Shown here piece by piece: positions 2,475 through 27,711 of a DNA stretch of 59,227 nucleotides. The DNA lies in NCBI GenBank assembly GCA_013349615.1, contig DUZJ01000011.1, positions 1 to 59,227 on the forward strand, given 5' to 3'. Below the pieces are notes generated by a model that was not told the DNA's origin, made no database searches, and saw only the letters and a program-made list of their open reading frames with translations. How positions within the stretch are numbered: the stretch's first letter is position 1; every line of letters starts with the position of its first letter. This stretch comes from Planctomycetota bacterium (GTDB lineage: Bacteria; Planctomycetota; Phycisphaerae; Sedimentisphaerales; Anaerobacaceae). The translations under genes and the position numbers were made by a program.

Positions 2475-3524
2475 CTACTTGTCCTGCTCGAACAGCTCAG
2501 GCTGTTTGGAATCGCGTTTCTTTCTCTGGAGCTTAAGCCCTAAATGCTCGCAGGCTGCTCTGGTAATTTCTCTGCCCCGTTTGGTTCGTCGTAAAAAACC
2601 TATCTGCAAAAGATACGGCTCCACTACATCTTCGAGGGTGTCCCTTTCTTCGCCGAGGGTTGCCGCGAGCGCATCAATACCAGCCGGGCCTCCATCATAA
2701 ACGCCCGCCAATGCACGCAAAAACGCCCTGTCCGGCTCATCCAATCCCAGCGAATCAATTTGCTCCATCGCCAGCGCTCTTTCGACAATTTCGGCACTAA
2801 GCACTCCTGAGCCTTTCACCTGAGCGTAGTCCCTCACCCGCTTTAATAATCGATTCGCAACTCGAGGCGCCCCGCGAGACCGCCCTGCAATCAGTTCCAA
2901 CGTCCCGTCCTCGTACTGCAATTGCAACAGCCCTGCGGACCTCTCTAAAATCGCTGTCAACTCTTCGGCTGTATAAAAAACCAGATGGTACAGCATCCCG
3001 AACCGACCGCGAAGCGGAGCGCTGAGGAGGCCCGCCCGTGTCGTTGCGCCGATTAACGTAAAACGCTTCAGCGGAAAGTTTATCGTCTTTGCGTGCAGAC
3101 CGCTGTCAACCGTAAAGTCGACCCTGAACTCTTCCATCGCAGGATAAATAAACTCTTCGACCGGCGTGCTGAGTCGGTGGATCTCATCGATGAAAAGCAC
3201 ATCGCCCGTGTTTATATTGCTCAAAAGGCCCATCACGTCACCGGCCTTTACCAAAGCCGGCCCCGATGAGCTCCGCAGCCTCGCCCCCATCTCGTTTGCT
3301 ACAACATTAGCCAACGTCGTCTTGCCGAGACCAGGCGGGCCGTAAAACAAAATATGCTCCAACGGCTCAGACCTCTGCTTGGCCGCTGCTATGGCAATCG
3401 ACAGCTTTTCTTTAACGCTGCACTGGCCTACACATTCGTTCAGGAATTTTGGCCGAAGTGAGACGTTAAAGCTCTCTTCCACCTCATTCAAAGATTGACC
3501 ACTTATGATTCTTCCTATCGCCAT
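2475..3524 (-). CDS. ruvB: Holliday junction branch-migration ATPase RuvB
   Basis: RuvB is the hexameric AAA+ motor that, loaded by RuvA, drives branch migration of Holliday junctions. Numbered from the ATG at 3524, Walker A GPPGLGKTT is at about 62-70 and Walker B DEIH at about 113-116. The arginine-finger region (GATTRAGLLSAPLRGRFG) and the C-terminal winged helix (GIDALAATLGEERDTLEDVVEPYLLQ, read in parts) follow. The frame is open to 3572, but those 16 codons lie on an inverted repeat (3546-3581) and lack family similarity, so MAIGRIISG is preferred. It follows ruvA on the same strand, as in most bacteria. Confidence 0.95.
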   Translation of the reverse strand: MAIGRIISGQSLNEVEESFNVSLRPKFLNECVGQCSVKEKLSIAIAAAKQRSEPLEHILFYGPPGLGKTTLANVVANEMGARLRSSSGPALVKAGDVMGLLSNINTGDVLFIDEIHRLSTPVEEFIYPAMEEFRVDFTVDSGLHAKTINFPLKRFTLIGATTRAGLLSAPLRGRFGMLYHLVFYTAEELTAILERSAGLLQLQYEDGTLELIAGRSRGAPRVANRLLKRVRDYAQVKGSGVLSAEIVERALAMEQIDSLGLDEPDRAFLRALAGVYDGGPAGIDALAATLGEERDTLEDVVEPYLLQIGFLRRTKRGREITRAACEHLGLKLQRKKRDSKQPELFEQDK

Positions 3525-3545
3525 AGTATAGCGTGTAGTACCTTG

Positions 3546-3581
3546 TTCGTAGTTCGCAGTCTCTGAACTCACAACTACGAA
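3546..3581. repeat. Short inverted repeat between ruvA and ruvB
   Basis: The arms ttcgtagtt (3546-3554) and aactacgaa (3573-3581) are exact reverse complements separated by 18 bp. The element sits between the ruvA stop and the preferred ruvB start. It is probably a small interspersed repeat and could form a hairpin in the ruvAB transcript. Confidence 0.6.
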
Positions 3582-5698: not shown

Positions 5699-7177
5699 AT
5701 GGGATTGAAGCTATATAACAGTCTGACAAGAAGGAAAGAGGAGTTCAAGCCATTGAAGGAAGGCTGGGTCGGCATATATGTCTGCGGCCCGACCGTATAT
5801 GGCCACGCACATCTGGGACATGCGAAGAGTTATGTCAGCTTTGATGTTCTGGTTCGATACCTCCGCTATCTGAGATACAACGTTACTTATGTGCAGAACA
5901 TAACTGATGTGGGCCATTTGACCGACGATGCTGATGAAGGCGAAGATAAGCTCGTCGTGGCGGCGAAAAAGGAACGTAAGCACCCGATGGCGCTGGCGGA
6001 ATACTATACACGCAGCTACTTTGAGGACATGGACCGGTTAAATTGTGTTCGGCCGGACATAAGTCCGCGAGCTACCGGCCATATAATTGAGCAGATAGAG
6101 CTGGTAAAGACACTTCTGAAAAAGGGCTATGCTTATGAGGTCAATGGCTCTGTGTATTTCGATGTGTCTAAATTCGAGGACTACGGGAAACTTTCGGGCC
6201 GAAATGTCGATGAGATGTTGGCCGGCGCCCGCGTAGAGGTCTCACCGGAGAAAAGAAAGCCGGCTGACTTTGCACTTTGGAAGAGGGCCGAGCCGAACCA
6301 TATTATGCAGTGGCCAAGCCCATGGGGGCCCGGCTTCCCGGGATGGCATCTCGAATGTTCGGTAATGAGTATGAAATATCTCGGCAAGACAATCGACATC
6401 CACGGCGGAGGATTAGAGAACCAGTTCCCGCACCACGAGTGCGAAATCGCCCAGTCGGAGGCGGCCAACGGCGTGCAATTCGTGCGATATTGGCTTCATA
6501 ATAATATGATTACCGTTGACAGCCAGAAAATGGGTAAGAGCCTGGATAATTTTATTACGCTGAAACAGGCGTTTTCAGGTGCACACGAGAGATTGACCAG
6601 AAGCTACGACCCGCTGGCGGTCCGGCAATTGATTTTGAACAGCCACTACAGAAGTCCGCTGGATTTTTCGGACGCTGCGTTGTTTGCAGCACAAAGCGGT
6701 TTCCAAAAAATCACCGAAACTGTTAAAGCAGTACGAAAAAGAATGAGCACAGCGAGCGAAAGCCAGGTTGATAAAGAGATGGCAGAACAGTTGAAACAAT
6801 CGAGGGAAAAATTTGAAGCGGCAATGAATGACGATTTAAATACGTCCGTTGCACTGTCAGTTCTGTTTGAACTTGTTCGGCTGGCGCAGAAACTCCTCGA
6901 CGATAGCAGTACAACCGTTGGGACCCTTAACCTGGTAAATGTTCTATTTGACCGGCTGGGCGGAGAGGTGCTGGGTATCGTAAGAGACGAATATCCGCAA
7001 ACCGGCCTGGCTGATGATGAAACGATGGATAAGCTGGTTGACGTTTTGATTCAGCAGCGAAATGAAGCTCGCAATAACAGGGATTTTGACAAGGCGGATG
7101 AGCTCCGTGACAAACTAAGCGAAATCGGCATTGTTTTGGAAGATACGCTCGGCGGAACTGAGTGGAGAAGGAAATGA
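5699..7177 (+). CDS. cysS: Cysteine--tRNA ligase
   Basis: This class I enzyme charges tRNA-Cys with cysteine using ATP. In the 492 residues the zinc-ligand Cys29 sits in YVCGPTVYG, followed by the HIGH-type motif as HLGH (about 38-41). The zinc-binding WHLECS and HHECE motifs are present, and the KMSKS loop reads KMGKS (277-281). The C-terminal DALR-type helical domain begins around 350, and the tail has the usual RDFDKADELRDKL. Length and order match the family. The last codons overlap ruvC (ATGA at 7174), showing translational coupling. Confidence 0.97.
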   Translation: MGLKLYNSLTRRKEEFKPLKEGWVGIYVCGPTVYGHAHLGHAKSYVSFDVLVRYLRYLRYNVTYVQNITDVGHLTDDADEGEDKLVVAAKKERKHPMALAEYYTRSYFEDMDRLNCVRPDISPRATGHIIEQIELVKTLLKKGYAYEVNGSVYFDVSKFEDYGKLSGRNVDEMLAGARVEVSPEKRKPADFALWKRAEPNHIMQWPSPWGPGFPGWHLECSVMSMKYLGKTIDIHGGGLENQFPHHECEIAQSEAANGVQFVRYWLHNNMITVDSQKMGKSLDNFITLKQAFSGAHERLTRSYDPLAVRQLILNSHYRSPLDFSDAALFAAQSGFQKITETVKAVRKRMSTASESQVDKEMAEQLKQSREKFEAAMNDDLNTSVALSVLFELVRLAQKLLDDSSTTVGTLNLVNVLFDRLGGEVLGIVRDEYPQTGLADDETMDKLVDVLIQQRNEARNNRDFDKADELRDKLSEIGIVLEDTLGGTEWRRK

Positions 7178-7662
7178 GAATACTCGGTATCGATCCGGGT
7201 TTGCAGGTCTGTGGATACGCTTGTCTGGAGGTTGGCCAGGATAAGGAGAAGTTGATTGAAGCAGGTATTATTCGTACGGACGGCGGCTCGGCGCTACAAG
7301 AAAAGCTCAATAGGATAGCTGAGGATATAGAATCGCTGCTAAAAAACTTCAAGCCTGATACAGTCGCAGTTGAAGAATTGTATGCACACTACGCCCATCC
7401 ACGGACCGCGATACTGATGGGGCACGCAAGAGGGGTCATTCTGCAAAAATGCGCGGAGGCGGGAATCGAGGTCAGAAGCTTTAGCGCGACGCATATAAAA
7501 AAATCAATCACCGGAAACGGCAGAGCATCGAAGGGACAAATCCAGAGGACTATTCAGACTATGTTGTCTTTGCCCAAGCTGCCTGAGCCGAGCGATGTGG
7601 CGGATGCCATAGCAGCGGCAGTCTGTTGTTCCAATTCGATTAGCATCGTTACGAAATTTTAA
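7174..7662 (+). CDS. ruvC: Crossover junction endonuclease RuvC
   Basis: RuvC is the dimeric RNase-H-fold nuclease that resolves Holliday junctions by symmetric nicks. The 162-residue product shows the four acidic residues of the active site: D7 in GIDPG, E67/E68 in VAVEELY, and D141 and D144 in SDVADA. The glycine/lysine-rich loop (KKSITGNGRASKGQ) is also present. The ATG at 7174 overlaps the cysS stop. A GTG four codons upstream is possible but less likely. cysS-ruvC is an unusual pairing, with ruvA and ruvB on the opposite strand nearby. Confidence 0.95.
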   Translation: MRILGIDPGLQVCGYACLEVGQDKEKLIEAGIIRTDGGSALQEKLNRIAEDIESLLKNFKPDTVAVEELYAHYAHPRTAILMGHARGVILQKCAEAGIEVRSFSATHIKKSITGNGRASKGQIQRTIQTMLSLPKLPEPSDVADAIAAAVCCSNSISIVTKF

Positions 7663-10130: not shown

Positions 10131-10982
10131 CTATTTTTGGCAGTAGTCAATGAGACGTGCGATTTCTCTGCGGAGGTCCCTTCGGTGGACAATCATATCG
10201 ACGAAGCCGTGCTCTAACATAAATTCAGCGGTCTGAAAACCTTCGGGCAGCTCTACCTTTATGGTTTCGGCAATTGTGCGAGGCCCTGCAAAACCAATCA
10301 AGGCACCCGGCTCAGCAATTATACAATCGCCTAACATTGCAAAGCTGGCCGTTACGCCGCCGGTGGTGGGGTCGGTCAAAACTGAAATGAAAAGTCCCCC
10401 AGCCTCGTCGAATTTGGCTAACGCCGCAGAAGTTTTTGCCATCTGCCCCAGTGAGACGACTCCCTCGTGCATCCTTGCTCCGCCGGAGCAGCTAACTACC
10501 ACTAATGGCAGTCTCTCGTCCATCGCCATGTCAACGGCGGCGCAAAACTTTTCGCCAACGACAAAGCCCATAGAGCCCATGAGGAAATTCGGCTCCATGA
10601 CCGCCAAGATAACACGCCTTCCCTTTATAAATGCCTTTCCGATGAGCATAGCCTCCTTTGCGCCGGATTTTTTCTCGCCGGCCTTTAGACGCTGCTTATA
10701 AGTTGTGCCTCTGAACTTGAAGCCGAGGGGGTCATAGGTCTTCAAATCGCCAAGAACCTGCTGAAAGGAATCCTTATCAAGCAGATACTTAATCCTGGTC
10801 GCTGCTTCAATTCTGAAATGATGATTGCATTCTGGACAGACATTTAGATTTTTCTCAACAGTGCTTTTATAGAGCATGTGCTCACAGGCCGGACACCGTA
10901 CCCAGAGACCTTCGGGCATCTCTTTGCGCGGCTTCAACGAAAAACCGTTCCATTTGGATTTTACTTCTTCGGCCATAGCCAT
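10131..10982 (-). CDS. accD: Acetyl-CoA carboxylase carboxyltransferase subunit beta
   Basis: AccD pairs with AccA to transfer CO2 from biotin to acetyl-CoA, making malonyl-CoA for fatty acid synthesis. The 283 residues start with the four-Cys zinc ribbon (C30, C33, C49, C52). The crotonase-like core follows, with GSMGFVVGEKF, SGGARMHEG and the TDPTTGGVTASFAMLGD oxyanion region. Met3 is an alternative start. accA is not adjacent. Confidence 0.96.
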   Translation of the reverse strand: MAMAEEVKSKWNGFSLKPRKEMPEGLWVRCPACEHMLYKSTVEKNLNVCPECNHHFRIEAATRIKYLLDKDSFQQVLGDLKTYDPLGFKFRGTTYKQRLKAGEKKSGAKEAMLIGKAFIKGRRVILAVMEPNFLMGSMGFVVGEKFCAAVDMAMDERLPLVVVSCSGGARMHEGVVSLGQMAKTSAALAKFDEAGGLFISVLTDPTTGGVTASFAMLGDCIIAEPGALIGFAGPRTIAETIKVELPEGFQTAEFMLEHGFVDMIVHRRDLRREIARLIDYCQK

Positions 10983-11153
10983 AACATTCCATCAATGATG
11001 AGATAATTTTATCATAAATTTACAGATATTGCCATAAAAATTAGCACACCATATCAGAGCAAATCAACGAAAACGGTGTTTGAGCCAGTAAAACAGGCCG
11101 CGAAATGACTTTTTTATAGATCCCTCGGCTCCTTCGATATTACTCAGGACAGG

Positions 11154-11216
11154 TACGCTTGGAATGACAGGAGAAATACGCTTGGAATGACAGGGGAAAT
11201 ACGCTCGGAATTACAA
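11154..11216. repeat. 23-bp tandem repeat (tacgcttggaatgacag...)
   Basis: Two full 23-bp units (11154-11176 and 11177-11199) differ at one or two bases. A partial third follows (11200-11216). The ggaatgacag core resembles ends of interspersed repeats elsewhere in the window. Confidence 0.75.
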
Positions 11217-11248
11217 TCTCTTTATTAGAGGATTTGAACCGAAAGGTT

Positions 11249-11313
11249 AAAAAGCAATTCGCCGAGCATGCCGTGCCTATCTTCGAAAGACAGTTAACAG
11301 CATGCCCGGCGAA
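11249..11313 (-). terminator. Stem-loop downstream of the tubulin-like gene
   Basis: The arms ttcgccgagcatgc (11258-11271) and gcatgcccggcgaa (11300-11313) pair over 14 positions with one mismatch. On the minus strand the stem is followed by gcttttta, so it may terminate the upstream gene. The 28-nt loop is long for an intrinsic terminator. Confidence 0.45.
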
Positions 11314-11345
11314 CTTAATTGCCAAGCACGGGTCGCTTGATTAAC

Positions 11346-13160
11346 TTAACCAACCTCAACAGCCATGCGACTCTTGAGCTCTTCAAGCCGAGATTTACAA
11401 GTTTCCATGCCTCCGATAATCGTGTAGACCCTAACGGATTCCCTTCCATCTTCATATATCCCTCGATGAATGGTGGCCTCGCCTGTTATCTCAGACAAAT
11501 TATCAAACGCATAGTCAATGTTGTCCTGCAAGCCTTTGACGCTCGCCATTAATTTTTTCCCGGCGACCACTACGCAACCAGCCAGTTTTGCAGTCGTTAA
11601 ATCGAAACCGCCTGCAAGCAGCGTCTTGCCAAGGTTCTTTTTGACGGCCTGCGATATTGCAAACTTGTCCTGAAATCTGTTCACTTTGGTCAGGCCCATT
11701 ATGGCACATCCGCCGGCCTCCATAATGCTGTGATAATCTACAGGGTCAAAGGAGGTATAGCGGCTGCTCAAGGCACTGAGCCTGTTGAATATATCAAACA
11801 GACCTGAGACAGTGCTGTTTATGCTGGGCCAGAATGACCTTACTGTCATTCCCGGATACATCTTGTTAATTTTGTCATTGTCAATGAAGATGAGAGGCGA
11901 TATTTCCCCAGCGGCGGCCATTTTACTTAAATCAGTGGCCACTTTCCAGGCATTCTCAGCTACCTTTGGCGAACTTGCTTCGCCGACGGTGGGTAAAGTC
12001 ATAACAACGCCAACCTTCGTGTCCGGGTTTGGCAGGCCAATATATCGAGCATAGCTTTTACAGATTTCGACCAAGCCTTGTGCACTTCCACCACCTGTTC
12101 CACCACCGGCACCAAAGGAAATCATGAGGTGGTCCACCTCAGCGCCAAATGTCTGGCGGGTCAAGTGCAAAATTTCCTGCTGATATTGCTGTACGGCATT
12201 CTGACCTCTTCCCATATCCTTACCTGCACCCTTTTCGCCCATGTCCATGAGGAACTTTTGATTTTCGGGAATATCGAGCAAATCCAAATCATGGTGAGTG
12301 GTATTAATGGCCAATACCTTCTTATAGCCCAGGTCATAAAAAGACTTGACTAATCTTCCGCCGCACTGACCTGCACCAATCCAGGCATATCGTGTAGAAC
12401 CCTTGATCCGGTCCTTAATGCCGCTCTCGAGCGAAATATGTGGCTCATACTGCTCCAAGTCTAACTGGGGCAGGAGCCAGGCGTTGAAATCAAATTGACC
12501 CTTTTGCGTTACGTGGCTTCGTCTTTGGGTGGCTTTCCTCGCGGGTTTTGTAGTTGTCTGCGCCTTCGGTGTTACATGCTCGGTGGGTGCCGGGCGTTTC
12601 GGAACTACGGTCTTTCTGGTTACCGTTGCCTTCGGTGCCGTGTGCCTCTTGGCTGTCGTGCGTTTCCTTGTGGTTGTTTTTGCCTTGGGTGTTGCGTGTC
12701 TCTTGGCTGTCGTGCGCTTCCTTGTGGTTGTTTTTGCCTTGGGTGTTGCGTGCCTCTTGGCTGTCGTGCGCTTCCTTGTGGTTGTTTTTGCCTTGGGTGT
12801 TGCGTGCCTCTTGGCTGTCGTGCGCTTCCTTGTGGTTGTTTTTGCCTTGGGTGTTGCGTGCCTCTTGGTTGTCGTGCGCTTCCTTGTGGTTGTTTTTGCC
12901 TTGGGTGTTGCGTGCCTCTTGGCTGTCGTGCGCTTCCTTGCCGTGGACTTCTTTCCTGCCTTTGCCTTGGGTGTCGCGTGCCTCTTGGCTGTCGTGCGCT
13001 TCCTTGCCGTGGACTTTTTGCCTGCCTTTGCCTTTGGCGTTGCACGCCTCTTGGCTGTCGTGCGCTTCTTAGCAGTTGGCTTTCTGCTCGCCTTAGCCTT
13101 CTTCGAGGCAGGCCTTTTTCCAGTTGCCCTTTTTTTAGTTTTAGCTGATCTTTTTGCCAT
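11346..13160 (-). CDS. FtsZ/tubulin-like GTPase with N-terminal histone-H1-like tail
   Basis: The 604 residues have two very different halves. Residues 1-222 are almost only Lys, Arg, Ala, Thr, Pro and His in tandem units of the KRTTAKRHATPKAK type, as in histone H1 C-terminal tails and bacterial H1-like proteins; no acidic residue appears before about 193. Residues about 258-600 are a tubulin/FtsZ-fold GTPase. T1 is GAGQCGG (about 262-268), a T3-like GAGKDMGR follows, and T4 is GAGGGTGGG (about 350-358). The T7-like FDPVDY carries both acidic residues (D472, D475) needed to activate the neighbouring subunit's GTP. Start ATG 13160 has GGGAG 8 bp upstream; the TTG five codons earlier is unlikely. 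A polymer-forming GTPase that also binds DNA is the natural inference. Confidence 0.88.
   Translation of the reverse strand: MAKRSAKTKKRATGKRPASKKAKASRKPTAKKRTTAKRRATPKAKAGKKSTARKRTTAKRHATPKAKAGKKSTARKRTTAKRHATPKAKTTTRKRTTTKRHATPKAKTTTRKRTTAKRHATPKAKTTTRKRTTAKRHATPKAKTTTRKRTTAKRHATPKAKTTTRKRTTAKRHTAPKATVTRKTVVPKRPAPTEHVTPKAQTTTKPARKATQRRSHVTQKGQFDFNAWLLPQLDLEQYEPHISLESGIKDRIKGSTRYAWIGAGQCGGRLVKSFYDLGYKKVLAINTTHHDLDLLDIPENQKFLMDMGEKGAGKDMGRGQNAVQQYQQEILHLTRQTFGAEVDHLMISFGAGGGTGGGSAQGLVEICKSYARYIGLPNPDTKVGVVMTLPTVGEASSPKVAENAWKVATDLSKMAAAGEISPLIFIDNDKINKMYPGMTVRSFWPSINSTVSGLFDIFNRLSALSSRYTSFDPVDYHSIMEAGGCAIMGLTKVNRFQDKFAISQAVKKNLGKTLLAGGFDLTTAKLAGCVVVAGKKLMASVKGLQDNIDYAFDNLSEITGEATIHRGIYEDGRESVRVYTIIGGMETCKSRLEELKSRMAVEVG
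12666..12935 (-). repeat. Five 54-bp tandem units inside the H1-like tail
   Basis: Five consecutive 18-codon units ending in TTTR are nearly identical in DNA. They are flanked toward the N terminus by related 22-codon units ending in KKSTAR and on the other side by one degenerate unit. Such arrays expand and contract by slippage, so tail length probably varies among strains. Confidence 0.9.
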
Positions 13161-13188
13161 TTTTACATCTCCCAATTAAATTATGTTT

Positions 13189-13204
13189 TTAACAAGCTTG
13201 TTAA
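13189..13204. promoter_or_regulatory. Perfect 16-bp palindrome upstream of the tubulin-like gene
   Basis: TTAACAAGCTTGTTAA is a perfect 16-bp palindrome 28 bp before the start codon. Its position and symmetry suit a repressor operator. A clear -35/-10 pair around it is not evident. Confidence 0.55.
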
Positions 13205-13832
13205 TTTTCAACTTTTCTACTACTTTCGACTTAACACGGGCGGTTTTGCAATCGCTGGTTTTTATCGGCTATTAGAGTCGAGGACATAATTTCTTTTTTT
13301 TTCAAAAAAGCCGTTTTTCAGAAATATCCCGTATGAAATGCCAAATCAAATAATGAGACGCTGAATGAGTTTACATAGGCCGACAACAAAATAGCCCCCT
13401 AAAGCAGTCAGAAAACGAAACGTGTCGGAATTTCTGCGGTTAATCAGCTTTGTGTAGTCGAAGGCCACAACAGACTGTCCGAAAAATACACGGAAAAATG
13501 CCGGCAATAACAAACATCCGATAACTTCTCGTATGGAATGAAGAATACATCCTCCGGAGCTAACGGATAAAGACTCCCTAAACCGGACTCGTGCGAAATG
13601 CCAGTTTGACGGCAAAAGAAACCAGAGACTAATAAACGGCACCTGTTTTTAAGTTATTTACAGGCAACGAGCCATTCCCAAGGACATTCGGCTGAGCTCA
13701 GTCGAAGCCCTGCGTTTGAGGCTGCCACCCATCAAATTAAATGTTGCAAAAAATTAGGTAGAAACAAAGCTCGAAATAAATATGGACCTGGGGTCCTATA
13801 TAAACCTGGACATACATCTGGAATGCACGAGA
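13205..13832. other. Intergenic region without convincing genes
   Basis: This region separates rpe from the tubulin-like gene. A 98-codon minus frame (13346-13642) lacks a ribosome site and family features. An interspersed-repeat word (ctgagctcagtcgaag) lies at about 13692-13707. A small ggacc/ggtcc palindrome near 13783 has no T-run. Confidence 0.5.
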
Positions 13833-14513
13833 CTATCCAAGGGGGCAGGCATCTCGAATTGCGTTTATTGCAGCGATACGGTCGGATTTTGAAAATATTG
13901 CGCTGCCGACTACAAGGGTGTCAGCACCGAAAGAAACCACTATCGGCGTGGTGTCAGGGTCTATTCCGCCATCGACTTCGATTCTTATTTCGGGGCCGAC
14001 AATTTCCCTTATTCGTCTAACCTTTTTTGCGGCCTCGGGCATAAACTTCTGCCCGCCAAAACCCGGCCGCACCGTCATCACCAGGACCATATCGCAAAGC
14101 GGGGCGATTTTCTCTACCGCCTCGACGGGCGTTTCGGGATTGAGGCATATCCCGGCAGTGCACCCTAAATTGTGTAATGTGTCGATAAGTATTTGCGGCT
14201 GGTCGGCCACTTCGATATGAAATGTTATGTGGTTTGCGCCGGCTTCAACAAAGGCTTTAGCATATTTATCAGGCTCACTTATCATCAAGTGAGCGTCGAA
14301 AACAAGACTGCTGTACTTGCGAAGCTTTGCAATGACCGGCGGTCCAATCGTGATATTCGGCACGAAGTGGCCGTCCATAACGTCCAGATGCACGATACTG
14401 GCGCCAGCCGACTCAACCACAGCTATCTCGTCAGCCAACCGTGCAAAGTCGGCACTCAGTATCGACGGCGCAATCTCAATTGTTCCCGCTTTAGGTAATC
14501 GCAAATCGGACAT
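13833..14513 (-). CDS. rpe: Ribulose-phosphate 3-epimerase
   Basis: Rpe interconverts ribulose-5-phosphate and xylulose-5-phosphate in the pentose phosphate or Calvin pathways. The 226-residue TIM barrel has the opening IAPSILSADFARL, the metal ligands H42 and D44 in VHLDVMDGHFVPNIT, and DAHLMI. VMTVRPGFGGQKF and the acid VDGGI near the C terminus follow. It is the last gene of the gap-pgk-rpe block, 62 bp after pgk. Confidence 0.96.
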   Translation of the reverse strand: MSDLRLPKAGTIEIAPSILSADFARLADEIAVVESAGASIVHLDVMDGHFVPNITIGPPVIAKLRKYSSLVFDAHLMISEPDKYAKAFVEAGANHITFHIEVADQPQILIDTLHNLGCTAGICLNPETPVEAVEKIAPLCDMVLVMTVRPGFGGQKFMPEAAKKVRRIREIVGPEIRIEVDGGIDPDTTPIVVSFGADTLVVGSAIFSKSDRIAAINAIRDACPLG

Positions 14514-14575
14514 AAGGCAGGCTCTTTTGATATCTGGTCTTGAACTCGTTAATTTTGAACTTCGAATCGTGAAGT

Positions 14576-15814
14576 CTATTTTTCATCGAGGATTTCGAGA
14601 CACTTAAATTTCTTTCCCTCTAAAAATTCAAGTGACGCCCCGCCGCCGGTGGAAATATGACTTATCTGTTCTTCGAGGCCAAGGTTCTTGACGGCACTTG
14701 CACTGTCACCGCCTCCGATTATACTGCGTGCGCCTTTCTCCGTAGCCTCGGCGACTGCTGAAGCAACGACCTTTGTTCCTTCATCAAAAGGCGGTATTTC
14801 AAAAACGCCCATCGGGCCGTTCCAGACAATGGTTCTGGCATCGTTAAGCTTTTCGGCAAAAAGCTTTCTGCTTTCGGGGCCGATATCAACACCCTGCCAA
14901 TCAGGTTCAATATCACCATCAATAACTTTATTCTCAGCGCCGACTTTTAACTCGTGTGCAACTACGGTATCAACCGGAAAAACCATTTCGCAGCCAGCGT
15001 CTTTTGCCTGTTCAACCAGCTCGGCAGCTTTATCAAGAAAATCATCTTCGCATAAGCTCTTTCCGACGGCGCGGCCATCGGCCTTGAAGAACGTATAGGC
15101 CATCGCGCCGCCAATCAGTATGCAGTCAACCTTGTCGAGAAGATTTTCAATTACACCTATCTTGTCGGAGACCTTCGCTCCACCTAAAATTGCTACGAAG
15201 GGTTTTTCAGGATTACTGAGCGTCTTGCCCAGGAATTTTAGCTCCTTTTCGATTAAAAACCCGATGACCTTAGGCTTGCCTTCCATAACCGTCGGAACGG
15301 TATACATCGAAGCGTTGTCCCTGTGTGCGGTTCCGAAGGCATCGTCCACATAGATATCCGCCATATCGGCAAGCTCTTTTGCAAAGTTGTCCTTGGCCTC
15401 TCTCAACTGCGTATCCTCTTTTGCAGCTTTGTCCTTTATGGTTTCTTCCTTGTGGAAGCGCAGGTTCTCAAGCAGCATACAGTCACCCGGCTTAAGAGCC
15501 TGCGCTTTGTCTTTTGTCTCAGAACCAATACAATCGTCAGCGAAAATAACGTCGGCTCCCAGAAGCTGCGACAATCTCTGGGCTACCGGCGCCAAAGACA
15601 ACTTCTCATACCTCTTGCCCTTGGGCCGGCCAAGATGGCTCATAAGAATCAATGCACCGCCGCGCTCCAGGATGCTCTTTATAGTCGGCAATGCCTTAAC
15701 GATTCGGTCATCGCTTGTAATGTTGCAGGCATCATCCAAGGGCACATTAAAATCACACCTCATTAATACCTTCTTGTCCTGTACATCGATATCAGCAACG
15801 GTTTTTTTGGCCAT
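14576..15814 (-). CDS. pgk: Phosphoglycerate kinase
   Basis: Pgk transfers phosphate between 1,3-bisphosphoglycerate and ADP. The product is 412 residues, a normal length. The N-terminal RCDFNVPLD and SHLGRPKG bind the triose. The hinge and nucleotide domain include GGAKVSDKIGVIENLL and WNGPMGVFE, and the GGGDSA loop lies near the C terminus. It sits between gap and rpe on the same strand. Confidence 0.97.
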   Translation of the reverse strand: MAKKTVADIDVQDKKVLMRCDFNVPLDDACNITSDDRIVKALPTIKSILERGGALILMSHLGRPKGKRYEKLSLAPVAQRLSQLLGADVIFADDCIGSETKDKAQALKPGDCMLLENLRFHKEETIKDKAAKEDTQLREAKDNFAKELADMADIYVDDAFGTAHRDNASMYTVPTVMEGKPKVIGFLIEKELKFLGKTLSNPEKPFVAILGGAKVSDKIGVIENLLDKVDCILIGGAMAYTFFKADGRAVGKSLCEDDFLDKAAELVEQAKDAGCEMVFPVDTVVAHELKVGAENKVIDGDIEPDWQGVDIGPESRKLFAEKLNDARTIVWNGPMGVFEIPPFDEGTKVVASAVAEATEKGARSIIGGGDSASAVKNLGLEEQISHISTGGGASLEFLEGKKFKCLEILDEK

Positions 15815-15831
15815 TTTCTTACCTCGATTTC

Positions 15832-15948
15832 TTTACCGCCGAGCTCGCCGAGGACGCAGAGATTTTTAATATTTCATTTCCGTACAACTTATGCCGTTTT
15901 CCTTTTATTCTGTTTTTCCTCTGCGCTCCCGGCGTTCTCGGCGGTAAA
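15832..15948. repeat. 30-bp inverted repeat between gap and pgk
   Basis: The arms 15832-15861 and 15919-15948 are about 85-90 percent reverse complementary. They share tttaccgccgag and ctcggcggtaaa ends and enclose 57 bp. The words (accgc...gcagag) belong to the same family as 55048-55077 and the ctctgcg fragment near 4458. It could fold in the gap-pgk transcript and affect relative expression. Confidence 0.75.
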
Positions 15949-15953
15949 TTTTT

Positions 15954-16967
15954 CTACATCGCCGCCATCTTTTCCATAATGTCAACGGTTCGGTTCGAAT
16001 AACCCCATTCGTTGTCATACCAACTGACGACCTTAACGGTCCTTCCGATGACTATTGTGCACAAAGAATCGAAGATGCTCGAAGCAGGGTCATTAACGAT
16101 GTCACTGCTGACGATTGGCTCATCACAATAAACCAGGAAGCCTTTCATCGGGCCTTCGGCTGATTTTTTCATCGCTGCGTTCACATCATCGACGGTAACG
16201 TCCTTTTTGACATTAACCACAAGGTCAACGATACTTCCGACAGGAATGGGTACGCGAATAGCAAAGCCATCGAGTTTACCGTCAAGTTCTGGGATAACTT
16301 TGCCGATGGCCTTTGCTGCGCCGGTGGTAGTTGGGATCATGTTGGCCGCTGCGGCCCGCGCTCGACGCAGGTCACTATGTATCATATCAGCCACATTCTG
16401 GTCGTTTGTGTAGGCATGAATCGTAGTCATAACACCCTGCTCAATACCAAATTCATCGTTAAGGGTCTTGGCCAGAGGCGCCAGGCAGTTGGTGGTACAG
16501 CTTGCGTTCGATACACATTTGACCTCACTGGTCAGCTCGTCATCGTTAACACCCAACACAATCGTCGCATCGATATTGTCCTTTGCCGGAACACTTAGTA
16601 TAACCTTTTCGGCGCCGGCCTTGATATGGTCGGCATAACCGCCCTTGGGTGATTCTGCTGTGCGAAAGATTCCCGTCGATTCCAGAACAATCTTTACGCC
16701 CATATCCTTCCAGGGCAGCTCGGCGGGATTCCTGACAGCCAAAACCTTGATGGATTTGCCATTAATGACTAATTCATCATCTTTCGCTTCGACTGTGCCG
16801 CTCCATTTGCCCATGACCGTATCATATTTGAACAGGTGCGCAAGGCTCTTTGCGTCCGAGAGGTCATTGACTGCGACCAGCTCCAAATCGCCCTTTCTTT
16901 GCATAATAATTCTTGCGACTGCTCTGCCGATTCGGCCGAACCCGTTAATTCCAACCTTTGTTGCCAT
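15954..16967 (-). CDS. gap: Glyceraldehyde-3-phosphate dehydrogenase
   Basis: This enzyme oxidises glyceraldehyde-3-phosphate with NAD(P) and phosphate. The 337 residues open with the Rossmann motif [10 protein letters not shown]. The catalytic thiol is C157 in SNASCTTNC, and the C terminus has [12 protein letters not shown]. Coenzyme preference cannot be settled by eye. It leads the gap-pgk-rpe unit and has a strong promoter upstream. Confidence 0.97.
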
Positions 16968-23253: not shown

Positions 23254-24771
23254 TTAGCGGCCCGGCATTGCGCCGTAATAAGGATACTTGTCGAATGCGT
23301 CACCTTTGCCGAGGACGCGAGGGTCTTTAGTCACCTTTAGCTCTGCCATCAAATCGTCGGCGAGTTTGCTTTTTACTTTAGCATACTCGGGCCGGTCAGC
23401 GACATTATTTAGTTCGGCAGGGTCCTTCCGCAGGTCATACAGCTCCTCAGCCGGGCGCTTTCCAAAACCCAGCTCAAATAACTTCTTAACCTTTGGGTCG
23501 TCGCGGTACTTCAACATATAAGACTTTGCAGGTGCCGCATTAACATCCGCATAACCATAATGTGTGCCGAGCGGACGGGACACCACTATTTTCGTAGGTT
23601 GGTCATAACCTTTGGGAGCACCGGCTGGCCAACGGTCCGGCTTGAAGTTGCGGATATACAGAAAATCGTGCGTCCGTATCGCCCGCATCGGATAACCTGC
23701 CATACCGGTTTGCTGACAGGGTACATGACGCTCTTTGCCGGTCAGGACGTGGTCGCGCTTCGGGTCCACGCGCCCGGACTTGGCCGATGTCAGCACATTC
23801 AGGAAACTCTTCGCGGTCATCCCTGGCGTGGGCTTGAGTCCGGCTGCTTCAAGGAACGTCGGCGCTAAATCCGATAGACTGATAAAGTCCTCCACGACAC
23901 GGTCGCCTTTTACTCTTGCAGGCCAGCGTACCGCAAGCGGGACGTTCGTGCCGAGGTCGTACAGATTGCTTTTGCACCTCGGGAACGGCATACCGTTGTC
24001 GCCGGAAATCACTACCAGTGTATTTTCAAGCTCGCCGTTTTCTTCCAGAACCTTCAGCAGCTCTCCGACCTCGCGGTCGAAGCGCTGAACCTCCCAAAAG
24101 TAGTCACAGATATCCGTGCGGACCTCTTCGCTGTCCGGCAGGCACGCCGGCACTTCTACATCCTCAAGTTTCATTCCGCTGTTGACGCCCGATTTCCACT
24201 TGTAGCCGCGGTGCGGGTCGTAGCTGCCAAACCAAAAGCAAAACGGCTCGCCTTTCGGCCGGTCTTTCAAGAACTGCTGGAAGTTTTTGTATTGTGGCCC
24301 TGCGGGATTACGTTTTCGGCCACCCGGCCCGTCGCGGCCCGGCGCCCAGCCTTTGCGTGTAAATCCAATATGGTAACCGGCCTGCTCCAGCAAATCCGGA
24401 TAGACCTTGAACTTTGCCGGCAGCGTACTCCAGAGGTTGCCGCCCTCCTCCAGTCGCCAGTGCCACTGTCCGGTCACGATAGCACCGCGCGACGGTGTAC
24501 ACGAAGGAGCAGAGACATACGCATTCTTAAACAGCACCCCTTCACGCGCCACACGGTCGAATGCCGGCGTTTTGACAACTTTGTCCCCGGCGATGCCGGC
24601 GTGAGGCCAGGACCAATCGTCCGCAAGGCAAAAGAGGATATTCGGCCGTTTCCCGGCTGCTCCACCCCTAAGCTGCTGCGCGAAGCTCACACATCCCGGC
24701 ACAGCCAATGATGCTGCACCAATGCCCATTGCTTTCAAAAAATCACGGCGAGTGTTATTGAGCGTACTCAT
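23254..24771 (-). CDS. Tat-exported sulfatase, heparan-N-sulfatase-like
   Basis: This type I formylglycine sulfatase hydrolyses sulfate esters or sulfamates of polysaccharides. Of 505 residues, 1-30 carry a Tat signal (TRRDFLKAMG) ending in a possible lipobox Cys (AVPGC27). Metal ligands are DD51-52 in LADDW, and C91 in CTPSR is the residue converted to formylglycine. The N-terminal WSWPHAG and the fold order resemble the SGSH-like sulfatase group. The C-terminal part has RAIRTHDFLYIRNFKPDRWPAG in pieces. It is the most downstream of three sulfatases on this strand. Confidence 0.92.
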   Translation of the reverse strand: MSTLNNTRRDFLKAMGIGAASLAVPGCVSFAQQLRGGAAGKRPNILFCLADDWSWPHAGIAGDKVVKTPAFDRVAREGVLFKNAYVSAPSCTPSRGAIVTGQWHWRLEEGGNLWSTLPAKFKVYPDLLEQAGYHIGFTRKGWAPGRDGPGGRKRNPAGPQYKNFQQFLKDRPKGEPFCFWFGSYDPHRGYKWKSGVNSGMKLEDVEVPACLPDSEEVRTDICDYFWEVQRFDREVGELLKVLEENGELENTLVVISGDNGMPFPRCKSNLYDLGTNVPLAVRWPARVKGDRVVEDFISLSDLAPTFLEAAGLKPTPGMTAKSFLNVLTSAKSGRVDPKRDHVLTGKERHVPCQQTGMAGYPMRAIRTHDFLYIRNFKPDRWPAGAPKGYDQPTKIVVSRPLGTHYGYADVNAAPAKSYMLKYRDDPKVKKLFELGFGKRPAEELYDLRKDPAELNNVADRPEYAKVKSKLADDLMAELKVTKDPRVLGKGDAFDKYPYYGAMPGR

Positions 24772-24825
24772 ATTTGTTTCCTCCTGTTTTTGTTTTTAGC
24801 TTTTATCCGGTTCAGTTTGCCCGCC

Positions 24826-26193
24826 TTAAGACTGGTTCTTTTCAGCGGCCCTTCCCGGCGGTCGAGCGTTTGCCTTCAATTCTCGGTCAAACTTTTCCAT
24901 CACGCCCGTTAGACGCTTGACTATTTTGGGATGCCCGGCTGCGAGATTGTTCTTTTCACTGATGTCAATTTCAAGGTCATACAATGCTGTCTTCTTTTTG
25001 CGGTGCAGTTTCCATCTACCGCTGCGGACGGCTTCGAGTTTGTTGCCTCTATAATAGAAGAAGGCTTTATGCGGTGACTTTGCCCTCGGCCTGCCGGAGA
25101 TTAGCGGCCATATATCTTTTCCATCAATGACGCGGTCGGCAGGTGGTTCGGCACCGGCCAACCGCGCAAATGTCGGCAGCAGGTCAATTGTGCCGCAGAC
25201 TTCGCCGCAGACCTTGCCTTCAGGGATTTCCCCGGGCCAGCGCATAATCGTCGGCTCGCGCATTCCGCCTTCATAGGTGGTGAATTTTCCGTCACGCAGA
25301 GGCAGGGCGGAGCCTCCATGATGCTTCTTGCCCAACCACGGGCCGTTGTCTGAGGTAAAAAGCACCAAGGTTTTTTCATCAATGCCCAGCTCTTTTAACG
25401 TCTTGAGAATCCGGCCTACGCTCCAGTCGATTTCCTCTATCACGTCGCCATATAAGCCGCGTTTGCTTTTTCCCTTAAATTTTTCCGATACGAACAGCGG
25501 GACGTGCGGCATCGTGTGCGGCAGATACAGGAAAAAGGGGCGATTTTTGTTTTCGGTTATAAACTTGATTGACTCTTCGGTGTATCTTTGTGTCAGTGTC
25601 GCCTGTTCGGCCGGGTGCTCGATGATGTCTTCGTTACGCATCAAGGGCGGGCCGCTTTTATCACCGCGCTTGATTCGCATGTCGTTGCTGTAAGGGATGC
25701 CATAGTAAGAATCGAATCCCTGCTGCATCGGTAAAAACTGCGGCAGGTGGCCAAGGTGCCATTTGCCGACGCAGGCGGTGGCGTAACCTTGAGCTTTGAG
25801 AATGTCAGCAATGGTGACTTCTTTGGGATTTAAGCCAATGCTGTCTCTTGGGAATAATACTTTTGTGATACTTACTCGTGGCGGATAACAGCCGGTCAGC
25901 AAAGCGGCCCGCGACGGCGAACAAATCGAAGCAGCCACATAGAAGTCCGTGAACTTCATACCCTCGGCGGCCATACGGTCAAGATTCGGTGTATTTATAT
26001 TTGGTGAGCCGAAACAGCCAACGTCCTGGTAGCCCTGGTCGTCGGTGAAGATGATTATGAAATTCGGCTTGTCAGTAGATGCCTTAGGCGAAACTCGCTG
26101 AGCCCCGCCCGCACATCCCGGCACGGCCAATGATGCAGCACCCAGACCCACTTTTTTGAGAAAATCACGACGTGTATAACCAACTGTTTCCAT
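24826..26193 (-). CDS. Tat-exported sulfatase, arylsulfatase-like
   Basis: The 455-residue type I sulfatase has Tat signal YTRRDFLKKVG, possible lipobox AVPGC27, metal ligands in FTDDQGY (D51-D52) and the formylglycine site C91SPSR. GKWHLGHLPQFLP gives the second active-site region with Lys and His, and FTSDNGPW gives the metal Asp/Asn pair. Overall it resembles N-acetylgalactosamine-6- or aryl-sulfatases; the substrate cannot be fixed from sequence. It shares strand and signal type with its two neighbours. Confidence 0.93.
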   Translation of the reverse strand: METVGYTRRDFLKKVGLGAASLAVPGCAGGAQRVSPKASTDKPNFIIIFTDDQGYQDVGCFGSPNINTPNLDRMAAEGMKFTDFYVAASICSPSRAALLTGCYPPRVSITKVLFPRDSIGLNPKEVTIADILKAQGYATACVGKWHLGHLPQFLPMQQGFDSYYGIPYSNDMRIKRGDKSGPPLMRNEDIIEHPAEQATLTQRYTEESIKFITENKNRPFFLYLPHTMPHVPLFVSEKFKGKSKRGLYGDVIEEIDWSVGRILKTLKELGIDEKTLVLFTSDNGPWLGKKHHGGSALPLRDGKFTTYEGGMREPTIMRWPGEIPEGKVCGEVCGTIDLLPTFARLAGAEPPADRVIDGKDIWPLISGRPRAKSPHKAFFYYRGNKLEAVRSGRWKLHRKKKTALYDLEIDISEKNNLAAGHPKIVKRLTGVMEKFDRELKANARPPGRAAEKNQS

Positions 26194-26292
26194 ATTTATC
26201 TCTCCAACTTTTAGTCACCCTTTTATATCCGTATGAACATCGCCTGGATTGTATTCGGTTGACGCTTTTGGCTCAAGAGCATTCTCTTTTCT

Positions 26293-27711
26293 CTACGGGG
26301 TTTTAACACCGATTTCCGTTCTCCAAGCTGTCAGGCGTTTTTTTAGTTCGGAGGCTTTTGTGGGCATTTTCTCTGCCAGGTTGTGTTTCTCCGCTACATC
26401 GTCGGCGAGGTTGTAGAGCTCGACCTCGTCTTTATCGAAGAACTCGATGAGCTTGAAGCTGCCGTCCCGGATTGCCCCGGATGAGCGTCCGCCGAGGAAA
26501 TGCGGCTTTTTGAGTGGATAGTGCCAATAGAGCGTTTCGCGGGCAAGCTCGGCCTTGGGATTCTTGAGCAAAGGCAAAATAGACACACCATCAAGAAGTT
26601 GGCGTTGGTCCGCTTTGAGGTCTGCGAGCTGAAGAAACGTCGGGTAGAAATCGATATTGCTGGTCGGCGTATTGCAAATACCGGCCGGTTTGATGACTGG
26701 CGGCCAACGGATGATTAACGGCTCGCGGATGCCGCCCTCGTAAAGCGTGGACTTGCCGGCCCGCAGCGGGGCATTGGAGGTAACCCGGTCCTCGCCGCCG
26801 TTGTCGCCGGTAAAGATTAGAACGGTGTTTTCGGCCAGGCCCAATTCGTCGAGCTTGTTGAAAATCTGCCCGACACCTTCGTCGAGGCTTTCGAGCTGCG
26901 CAGCGAGGTGTGGATTATTCCGCCGGGCCCTATTCCCTCTGCCGGCGCCGGGCTTTTTTTCATACTTTGCAACGAGTTCAGGCTTGCCCTGCAGCCGGGT
27001 GTGGACGGCGTAGTGACTCAGGTAGAGAAAGAAAGGGCCATCCTTGTGCCGCTCGATGAACTCGATGGCTTCGAGGTTGCAGCGATCGACGAGGTATTCT
27101 GTGCCGGGCAGACGCTTTTTGATTTGCTTGTTGAAGTGATAGGGATGAAAGTAGCTGCCGCCGCCGATGCCGCGGTTTTCCGAGACAATCGTTTCGTCAA
27201 AGCCGTGTTGAGTTGGTGGGACTTCCTTAGCACCGTGGTTGGTATAACCGGTAAGGTGCCACTTGCCTATGATGCCTGTGGCGTAGCCGGCCCGCTTGAG
27301 CATCTCGGCGATGGTGATATGGTCGGTCGAAAGATGATTTGCATCGTTTGGACGAAGGTAATCGGTCATTCCCACTCTTGCCGGATATTGTCCGGTCATC
27401 AGGGCCGCTCGATAAGGTGAACAGACGGGTGCCGATGCGTAAGCATTTGTAAACTTGATGCCCTGGCTCGCCAGTCTGTCGAGGTTGGGCGTTTCATTAA
27501 AGGTGTTGCCGTAGCATCCCAGCTCGGCCCAGCCCAGGTCATCAGCCAGAATGAAGATGATGTTGGGCTTTTGGGCAGATGCCCTGTCCGTGGTTGGTCT
27601 TGAGAAACTTACGCAGCCCTGCATCGTCAGTGCCGCCGTCCCCAGCCCTATGGCTTTTAAGAAGTCACGACGTGTGTAATTCACTTTTTTGCTCCGATTC
27701 CCATCTTTCAT
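26293..27711 (-). CDS. Tat-exported sulfatase with CSPYR active-site motif
   Basis: The 472 residues have Tat signal YTRRDFLKAIG, lipobox-like TMQGC33, metal ligands DD57-58 in LADDLGW and an active-site Cys97 in CSPYR. The usual motif is CxPSR or CxAxR, and Tyr replaces Ser here. The minimal C-x-P-x-R frame is kept, so formylglycine formation is still plausible. GKWHLTG, HYAVHTRLQG and FTGDNGG complete the active site. It resembles arylsulfatase A-like enzymes. It starts 6 bp from the end of tilS. Confidence 0.92.
   Translation of the reverse strand: MKDGNRSKKVNYTRRDFLKAIGLGTAALTMQGCVSFSRPTTDRASAQKPNIIFILADDLGWAELGCYGNTFNETPNLDRLASQGIKFTNAYASAPVCSPYRAALMTGQYPARVGMTDYLRPNDANHLSTDHITIAEMLKRAGYATGIIGKWHLTGYTNHGAKEVPPTQHGFDETIVSENRGIGGGSYFHPYHFNKQIKKRLPGTEYLVDRCNLEAIEFIERHKDGPFFLYLSHYAVHTRLQGKPELVAKYEKKPGAGRGNRARRNNPHLAAQLESLDEGVGQIFNKLDELGLAENTVLIFTGDNGGEDRVTSNAPLRAGKSTLYEGGIREPLIIRWPPVIKPAGICNTPTSNIDFYPTFLQLADLKADQRQLLDGVSILPLLKNPKAELARETLYWHYPLKKPHFLGGRSSGAIRDGSFKLIEFFDKDEVELYNLADDVAEKHNLAEKMPTKASELKKRLTAWRTEIGVKTP

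Follow-up and report, generated by a model that had tools for sequence, protein, structure and literature searches.

The 59,227-nucleotide stretch of planctomycete DNA analyzed here (the window) encodes, at 11346..13160 on the minus strand, a tubulin-superfamily protein of 604 amino acids (aa) counted from its ATG, in which a long basic tail resembling that of histone H1 precedes a tubulin core. A tubulin/FtsZ-type GTPase core with an N-terminal H1-like tail was what the original prediction, made from the DNA letters alone, had described, and this architecture is borne out and recurs in a family of proteins. The core is TubZ-like with intact GTPase motifs and likely polymerizes with GTP, and the tails would hold chromosomal DNA, a reading given slightly less than an even chance. 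The membership in a family, a tandem partner of the helix-turn-helix (HTH) type, and relatives on viral contigs go beyond what reading the single sequence had shown.

Of 7992 candidates scored in a protein search, 1134 matched at E ≤ 1e-3, and the best 120, headed by the window's own protein, are listed; as these are the closest relatives only, shares among them may not hold family-wide. The linker and tubulin core (11349..12503, minus strand, as are all features of the gene given below) comprise 385 aa with a predicted fold (predicted local distance difference test [pLDDT], 85.9; predicted template modeling score [pTM], 0.85), and the conserved linker motif LPQLDLEQYEP (12441..12473) precedes the core. 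The T1 nucleotide loop GAGQCGGR (12354..12377), the T4 tubulin signature GAGGGTGGGS (12084..12113), and the T7 loop FDPVDY (11733..11750) are all present, as had been predicted, and recur as GxGQCGGR, GAGGGTG[SG]G, and FDxxDY in 120 of the 120 listed relatives. The acids of FDPVDY are taken, by alignment, to stand at the T7 positions of FtsZ. A score of 40.8 bits with PF00091 (cut-off of 33) places the protein in the Tubulin/FtsZ superfamily. The FtsZ equivalog TIGR00065 reaches 46.5 bits, so far under its cut-off of 295.2 that identity with canonical FtsZ was rejected, in agreement with the predicted unlikeness to ordinary FtsZ. TubZ is nearest by profile search, Foldseek, and VIA structure comparison; TubZ-like_C (PF22453) scores 21 bits in the window protein, under its cut-off of 26, and is precomputed for five of the 120 listed relatives. 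The 50 VIA matches listed contain neither PhuZ nor eukaryotic tubulin, which does not exclude either. The window protein has no match in PF13809, PADLOC, or PHROG; some relatives reach the PF13809 cut-off of 27 (P0046, 30.1; P0073, 28.7). Nothing follows the core C-terminally in the predicted structure.

The N-terminal basic tail (12504..13160) has a net charge of +82 and contains eight TPK motifs. Threonine (25.1%), lysine (22.8%), alanine (17.4%), arginine (15.1%), proline (6.8%), and histidine (4.1%) make up 91% of it, with one acidic residue, so that the composition and repeats of the original prediction stand and its length of 222 residues is corrected to 219. Tandem repeats of 54 and 66 nucleotides (12626..13068) encode the 18- and 22-residue units of the tail, the 54-nucleotide repeat being found in 6.8 copies at 12626-13006 with Tandem Repeats Finder. 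The database copy P0001 has an identical core and a tail of 201 residues, one 18-residue unit shorter, and the copy number is therefore variable or uncertain in assembly. Differences between the window and the orthologue at locus L043 fall on codon positions 1/2/3 as 21/24/54 in the tail and 31/18/97 in the core, an excess at position 3 of the tail that matches what would be expected of a coding frame. The tail of the window differs from those of L047, L049, L046, and L045 by 41/47/76, 43/37/82, 33/41/77, and 9/15/23, respectively; a weaker excess is seen when the tails of L047 and L049 are compared with each other (11/22/25) and when the repeat units within the window's tail are compared (72/96/116). 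A long, low-complexity tail of K/R/A/T/P with TPK motifs is H1-like by sequence. HctB and AlgP are bacterial histone-H1-like proteins, and proteins of their type share with the window the repetitive tail and the TPK motifs; in contrast to them, the tail in the window is joined to a tubulin. No matches to the tail were found elsewhere in its own genome, which is weak evidence owing to the low complexity.

Comparable tails, defined by a stretch of 30 or more residues ahead of the linker and a K+R content of at least 28%, occur in 92 of the 120 listed proteins, the window's own included. They measure 37 to 241 aa (median, 108 aa) with a median net charge of +37.5, and 61 of the 92 contain S/TPK; four further proteins lie between the tailed and the short-start classes. 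The idea that the tail is a peculiarity of one assembly was rejected, as comparable tails recur across the family. The outcomes named beforehand as refuting the architecture from sequence, a core grouping with a non-GTPase family and a tail missing in all relatives through assembly error, did not occur and, given this recurrence, do not apply. The original prediction knew of no described system of this kind, and no description was found in the portion of the open-access literature searched, which excludes subscription journals and bioRxiv.

The core gene is followed in several genomes by another tubulin gene. One encoded form, termed B, comprises a core followed by the AAA lid PF25601 (AAA_lid_14) and, in some members, a Fis-type HTH, with examples at L055:9233-11029, L058:6708-8288, and L066:8878-10581. 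The C-terminal end of B appears to be that of an NtrC-class activator without the AAA+ domain; Pfam finds the lid but no AAA+ ATPase domain, and a match to the CARF_AAA_HTH model is read as this NtrC-type end. The lid exceeds its cut-off in all 11 distinct proteins with a C-terminal extension that were scanned, and six of them reach 22 bits with HTH_8; four of the 11 were chosen because a hit was precomputed. A second protein search yielded 75 proteins with an extension of 80 residues or more among 110 newly found; the T4 motif of these 75 reads GGGAG in 33, GGGTG in 21, and is other or unparsed in 21, and both T7 acids are found in 62, the remaining 13 being unparsed. A model of the B protein of L055, which itself has no HTH_8 hit, was built from a 34-row alignment (pLDDT 76.8, pTM 0.62) and predicts helices at 541-561, 566-573, and 577-586 in a block with a pLDDT of 88 to 91. 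The N-terminal module of B matches no family over cut-off. B-type tubulins carry here a module resembling a stand-alone 72-aa protein encoded in the window's own genome (L082:818-1036), which shows a 58% match to the N-terminal module of P0032; this small protein scores 19.9 bits with Rho_N (cut-off of 24.9), a lead only.

The tails of complete core genes that have a B partner measure 0, 0, 0, 12, and 43 residues, compared to 45 to 264 residues in 19 other complete core genes (p 0.0008, a value that overstates the case because the pairs are related). Genes left out of this comparison were cut (L044, L069, the first gene of L070, L072, L074, and L077) or second-copy or divergent (the second genes of L056, L068, and L070, as well as L067, L071, L073, L075, L076, L078, and L079). 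A tailed copy is present also in DSDH (L063, L067), JAFGPC (L068), and JAAYVQ (L069, L071), and the VRUL and JAOUFU assemblies contain a tailed copy plus a tail-less copy paired with B. Since B-paired cores have short or no tails, the pattern reads as though DNA contact were supplied once, by the tail or by the HTH, and together with the NtrC-like end of the paralogue it lends indirect support to DNA binding by the tail. A separate, divergent paralogue (L041:7255-8313, L042:7661-8704, L075, L076, L078, and L079) has lost the T4 glycine motif and kept the T7 acids. An AAA+ ATPase (L030:11632-13119 and kin), presumably Ycf46-like, is encoded close to several of the divergent paralogues and is also found near the tandem of core gene and B in L030 and L037.

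The gene is flanked by an accD-type carboxyltransferase gene downstream (10131..10982, minus strand) and by rpe, pgk, and gap upstream (13833..16967, minus strand). This order is kept, with extra open reading frames (ORFs) in places, in L027, L031, L033, and L036, the last of which belongs to another family. As these housekeeping neighbors are alike in all five loci, the gene is chromosomal and not plasmid- or phage-borne. A scan of genome contigs gave 37 loci, all in records titled MAG, 36 of them titled Planctomycetota or a subgroup and one, L065, titled Candidatus Omnitrophota; the latter is 68% identical and may reflect transfer or misbinning. Members were found in 14 of 66 genomes of the order with at least 90% completeness and at most 5% contamination, and in 7 of 294 genomes of a phylum-wide sample, three of them weakly.

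Relatives also occur on contigs of uncultivated viruses. A scan of IMG/VR gave 162, of which 80 were kept (L083-L162); these share 47 to 51% identity with the window core, the linker motif, and the GTPase motifs and differ in having no comparable basic tail and, in many cases, a terminase cluster nearby. T1 and HRGIYED are held in 80 of the 81 matched viral ORFs, 51 have GVSGGSGGGT and 22 have GAGGGSGSGS at T4, and the T7 acids and the linker, most commonly PTLDIEDYDP, are kept in common forms. A terminase-type gene cluster is present in 53 of the 80 loci, its longest member matching the terminase large subunit (phrog_2, 9.5e-53). In a 47-row tree, 14 viral rows form one clade (98/83) and 30 bacterial rows another (59/83), while three plasmid genes stand at a long distance from both. 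No named phage among 50,697 records gave a tblastn match.

The TubZ system of type III partition (TubZ-TubR-TubY-tubC) is the nearest known one by fold and profile, and the GTPase motifs are common to both. TubZ is coupled to DNA, as the window protein would be if its tail binds DNA. In contrast to TubZ, the gene is chromosomal, accD and rpe adjoin it in place of a TubR-like gene or iterons, and the basic part is fused N-terminally, whereas TubZ recruits partners through its C-terminal tail (PMC5322520). FtsZ shares the superfamily and the T4 and T7 motifs but neither the long N-terminal tail nor a model that the window protein satisfies. The CetZ proteins are archaeal tubulins with a role in cell shape; the window protein differs in being bacterial and in its H1-like tail, and a cell-shape role has no support here. 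FtsZl-1, presumably equivalent to Pfam Tubulin_2, is a further point of comparison; the window protein shows neither its coiled coil, helical C-terminal domain, and kinase nor a match to PF13809. According to Makarova and Koonin (2010), FtsZl-1 comprises divergent prokaryotic tubulins occurring also in Planctomycetes, which contain a coiled coil and whose C-terminal domain is helical, four planctomycete members having an N-terminal kinase in addition (PMC2875224).

In the mechanism proposed, GTP would drive the subunits to assemble head to tail, and the T7 acids of one subunit would complete the GTPase site of its neighbor as in other tubulins; GTP-dependent filaments are suggested by the fold and motifs. 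Each subunit would bring one flexible basic tail, making the filament a multivalent, sequence-unspecific DNA binder, and binding of DNA by the tail is suggested by its composition and by the swap in the paralogue. Growth and disassembly of the filament may then drag, spread, or compact the nucleoid. Where the tandem paralogue is present, its Fis-type HTH could give the DNA contact, possibly a site-specific one, and the partner would need little or no tail. This would amount to a TubZ-like machine with its adaptor built in, replacing a separate TubR. Movement of DNA or organization of the nucleoid is proposed by analogy with TubZ, and the DNA process served, segregation or nucleoid organization, is the least certain step. 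The fuller version, in which a one-protein, chromosomal, DNA-moving tubulin without adaptor or centromere moves or shapes the nucleoid of FtsZ-less planctomycetes, the tandem tubulin-HTH partner aims it at sites, and the protein descends from, or is shared with, the tubulins of a large uncultivated phage group, is tentative and on balance doubtful.

Several observations weigh against a DNA-holding, TubZ-like filament. Among the listed proteins, 24 of 120 have an N-terminal part of fewer than 30 residues ahead of the linker (five of them do not begin with Met), and all 80 viral relatives measured are tail-less, with a net charge before the linker of at most +7; L095 and L141 have longer basic-looking starts, possibly from upstream start codons. 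A single-sequence search of the PDB puts FtsZ marginally ahead of TubZ in a near tie, and the second rank of the profile search is a potassium-uptake RCK chain (3.1e-10, first 90 positions only). The tail pattern rests on five pairs uncorrected for kinship; the B piece counted for L057 comes from a different contig of that assembly (L077), the B partner of L053 is cut by masked bases, and the left-out genes L067, L071, and the second genes of L068 and L070 have N-termini of 18 to 25 residues and no HTH extension. HTH_8 is precomputed in only seven of the 120 proteins listed by the second search. Iterons or centromere-like repeats were not found at 10983-13832 outside the coding repeats. The family is patchily distributed, with 28 carriers among the order's 161 genomes, the window's own included. 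ParB exceeds its cut-off in 24 of these 28 and in 27 of 28 non-carriers tested, so that segregation would be served by another system, and replacement of ParB was rejected. Finally, a basic tail is equally compatible with binding of RNA, polyphosphate, ribosomes, or membranes.

This last point leads to a reading of the filament as a general cytoskeleton whose tail attaches to RNA, ribosomes, polyphosphate, or membrane lipids. The sequence of a low-complexity K/R/T/A tail confers no specificity, and the lysine-rich tail of TubY also associates with lipids (PMC7762940); that cores with a short or absent tail are partnered by an NtrC-ended paralogue, in some cases bearing a Fis HTH, speaks against this reading and makes it unlikely. 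By a shade less unlikely is a division tubulin replacing FtsZ, which would form a midcell ring in FtsZ-less Phycisphaerae with a tail that senses nucleoid position or binds partners. FtsZ exceeds its cut-off in none of the 28 carriers (many incomplete, 14 of good quality), in a search positive in 13 of 14 control genomes, and the window's gene is the sole PF00091 match in its own genome, which is 80% complete. FtsZ is reported not to be found in planctomycete genomes, and Phycisphaerae still to divide by a binary-fission-like process, with another driving protein raised as a question (PMC6952346). However, 133 of the 161 genomes of the order, many of them incomplete, gave no member, and since most relatives do without it, the gene cannot explain FtsZ-less division in general. 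In addition, none of the ten window neighbors scanned belongs to a division family, and the core is nearer to TubZ than to FtsZ.

A GTP-controlled gene regulator, whose core is an assembly switch and whose H1-like tail or NtrC-type end acts on transcription, would accord with the activator-like end of B and the frequent replacement of the T4 threonine there (GGGAG in 33 of 75), but B has the lid without an AAA+ ATPase domain and the tailed form keeps its GTPase motifs, which leaves this reading rather improbable. Least probable is a tubulin of phage kinship that acts against or for viruses, for instance by poisoning phage filaments through coassembly while its tail anchors it to host DNA. The viral relatives with their single sampled clade and terminase clusters favor it, as does the AAA+ ATPase near some paralogues, which matches models of the defense protein IetA (7.3e-28), though CDC48-type models as well. 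Against it stand the lack of a PADLOC match and the conserved place amid housekeeping genes, and transfer may have gone either way at a planctomycete support of 59/83.

Further features surround the gene. Minus-strand ORF alternatives run over 11346-13175 from TTG and 11346-13160 from ATG, the latter being the one that fits: GGGAG, resembling a ribosome-binding site, lies just 5' of the ATG (13169..13173), and similar motifs precede the start in seven aligned orthologues. After the stop, a hairpin with a T run resembles an intrinsic terminator (11246..11314; z -6.3), and such a hairpin was found by a simple script test in 19 of 21 tailed genes, the window's own included. A conserved downstream element considered as a centromere was rejected, as it equals this hairpin and T run. 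Three copies of a 23-nucleotide repeat lie at 11145-11213, between the terminator and accD. Farther off are ruvB and ruvC (2475-3572 and 7162-7662), and the same gene clusters adjoin the gene in L036. At 23254-27711 stand three paralogous genes in tandem whose products have Tat-like signal sequences (TRRDFLK).

The known plasmid-moving TubZ grips DNA via a separate adaptor. If the DNA-holding filament proposed here is correct, no DNA-coupled tubulin would be simpler than this one, which brings a histone-like tail of its own and has a sister with an NtrC-type DNA-binding end instead, in bacteria that apparently divide and handle their nucleoid without FtsZ. The viral relatives add a concrete, testable link between the tubulins of phages and their hosts.
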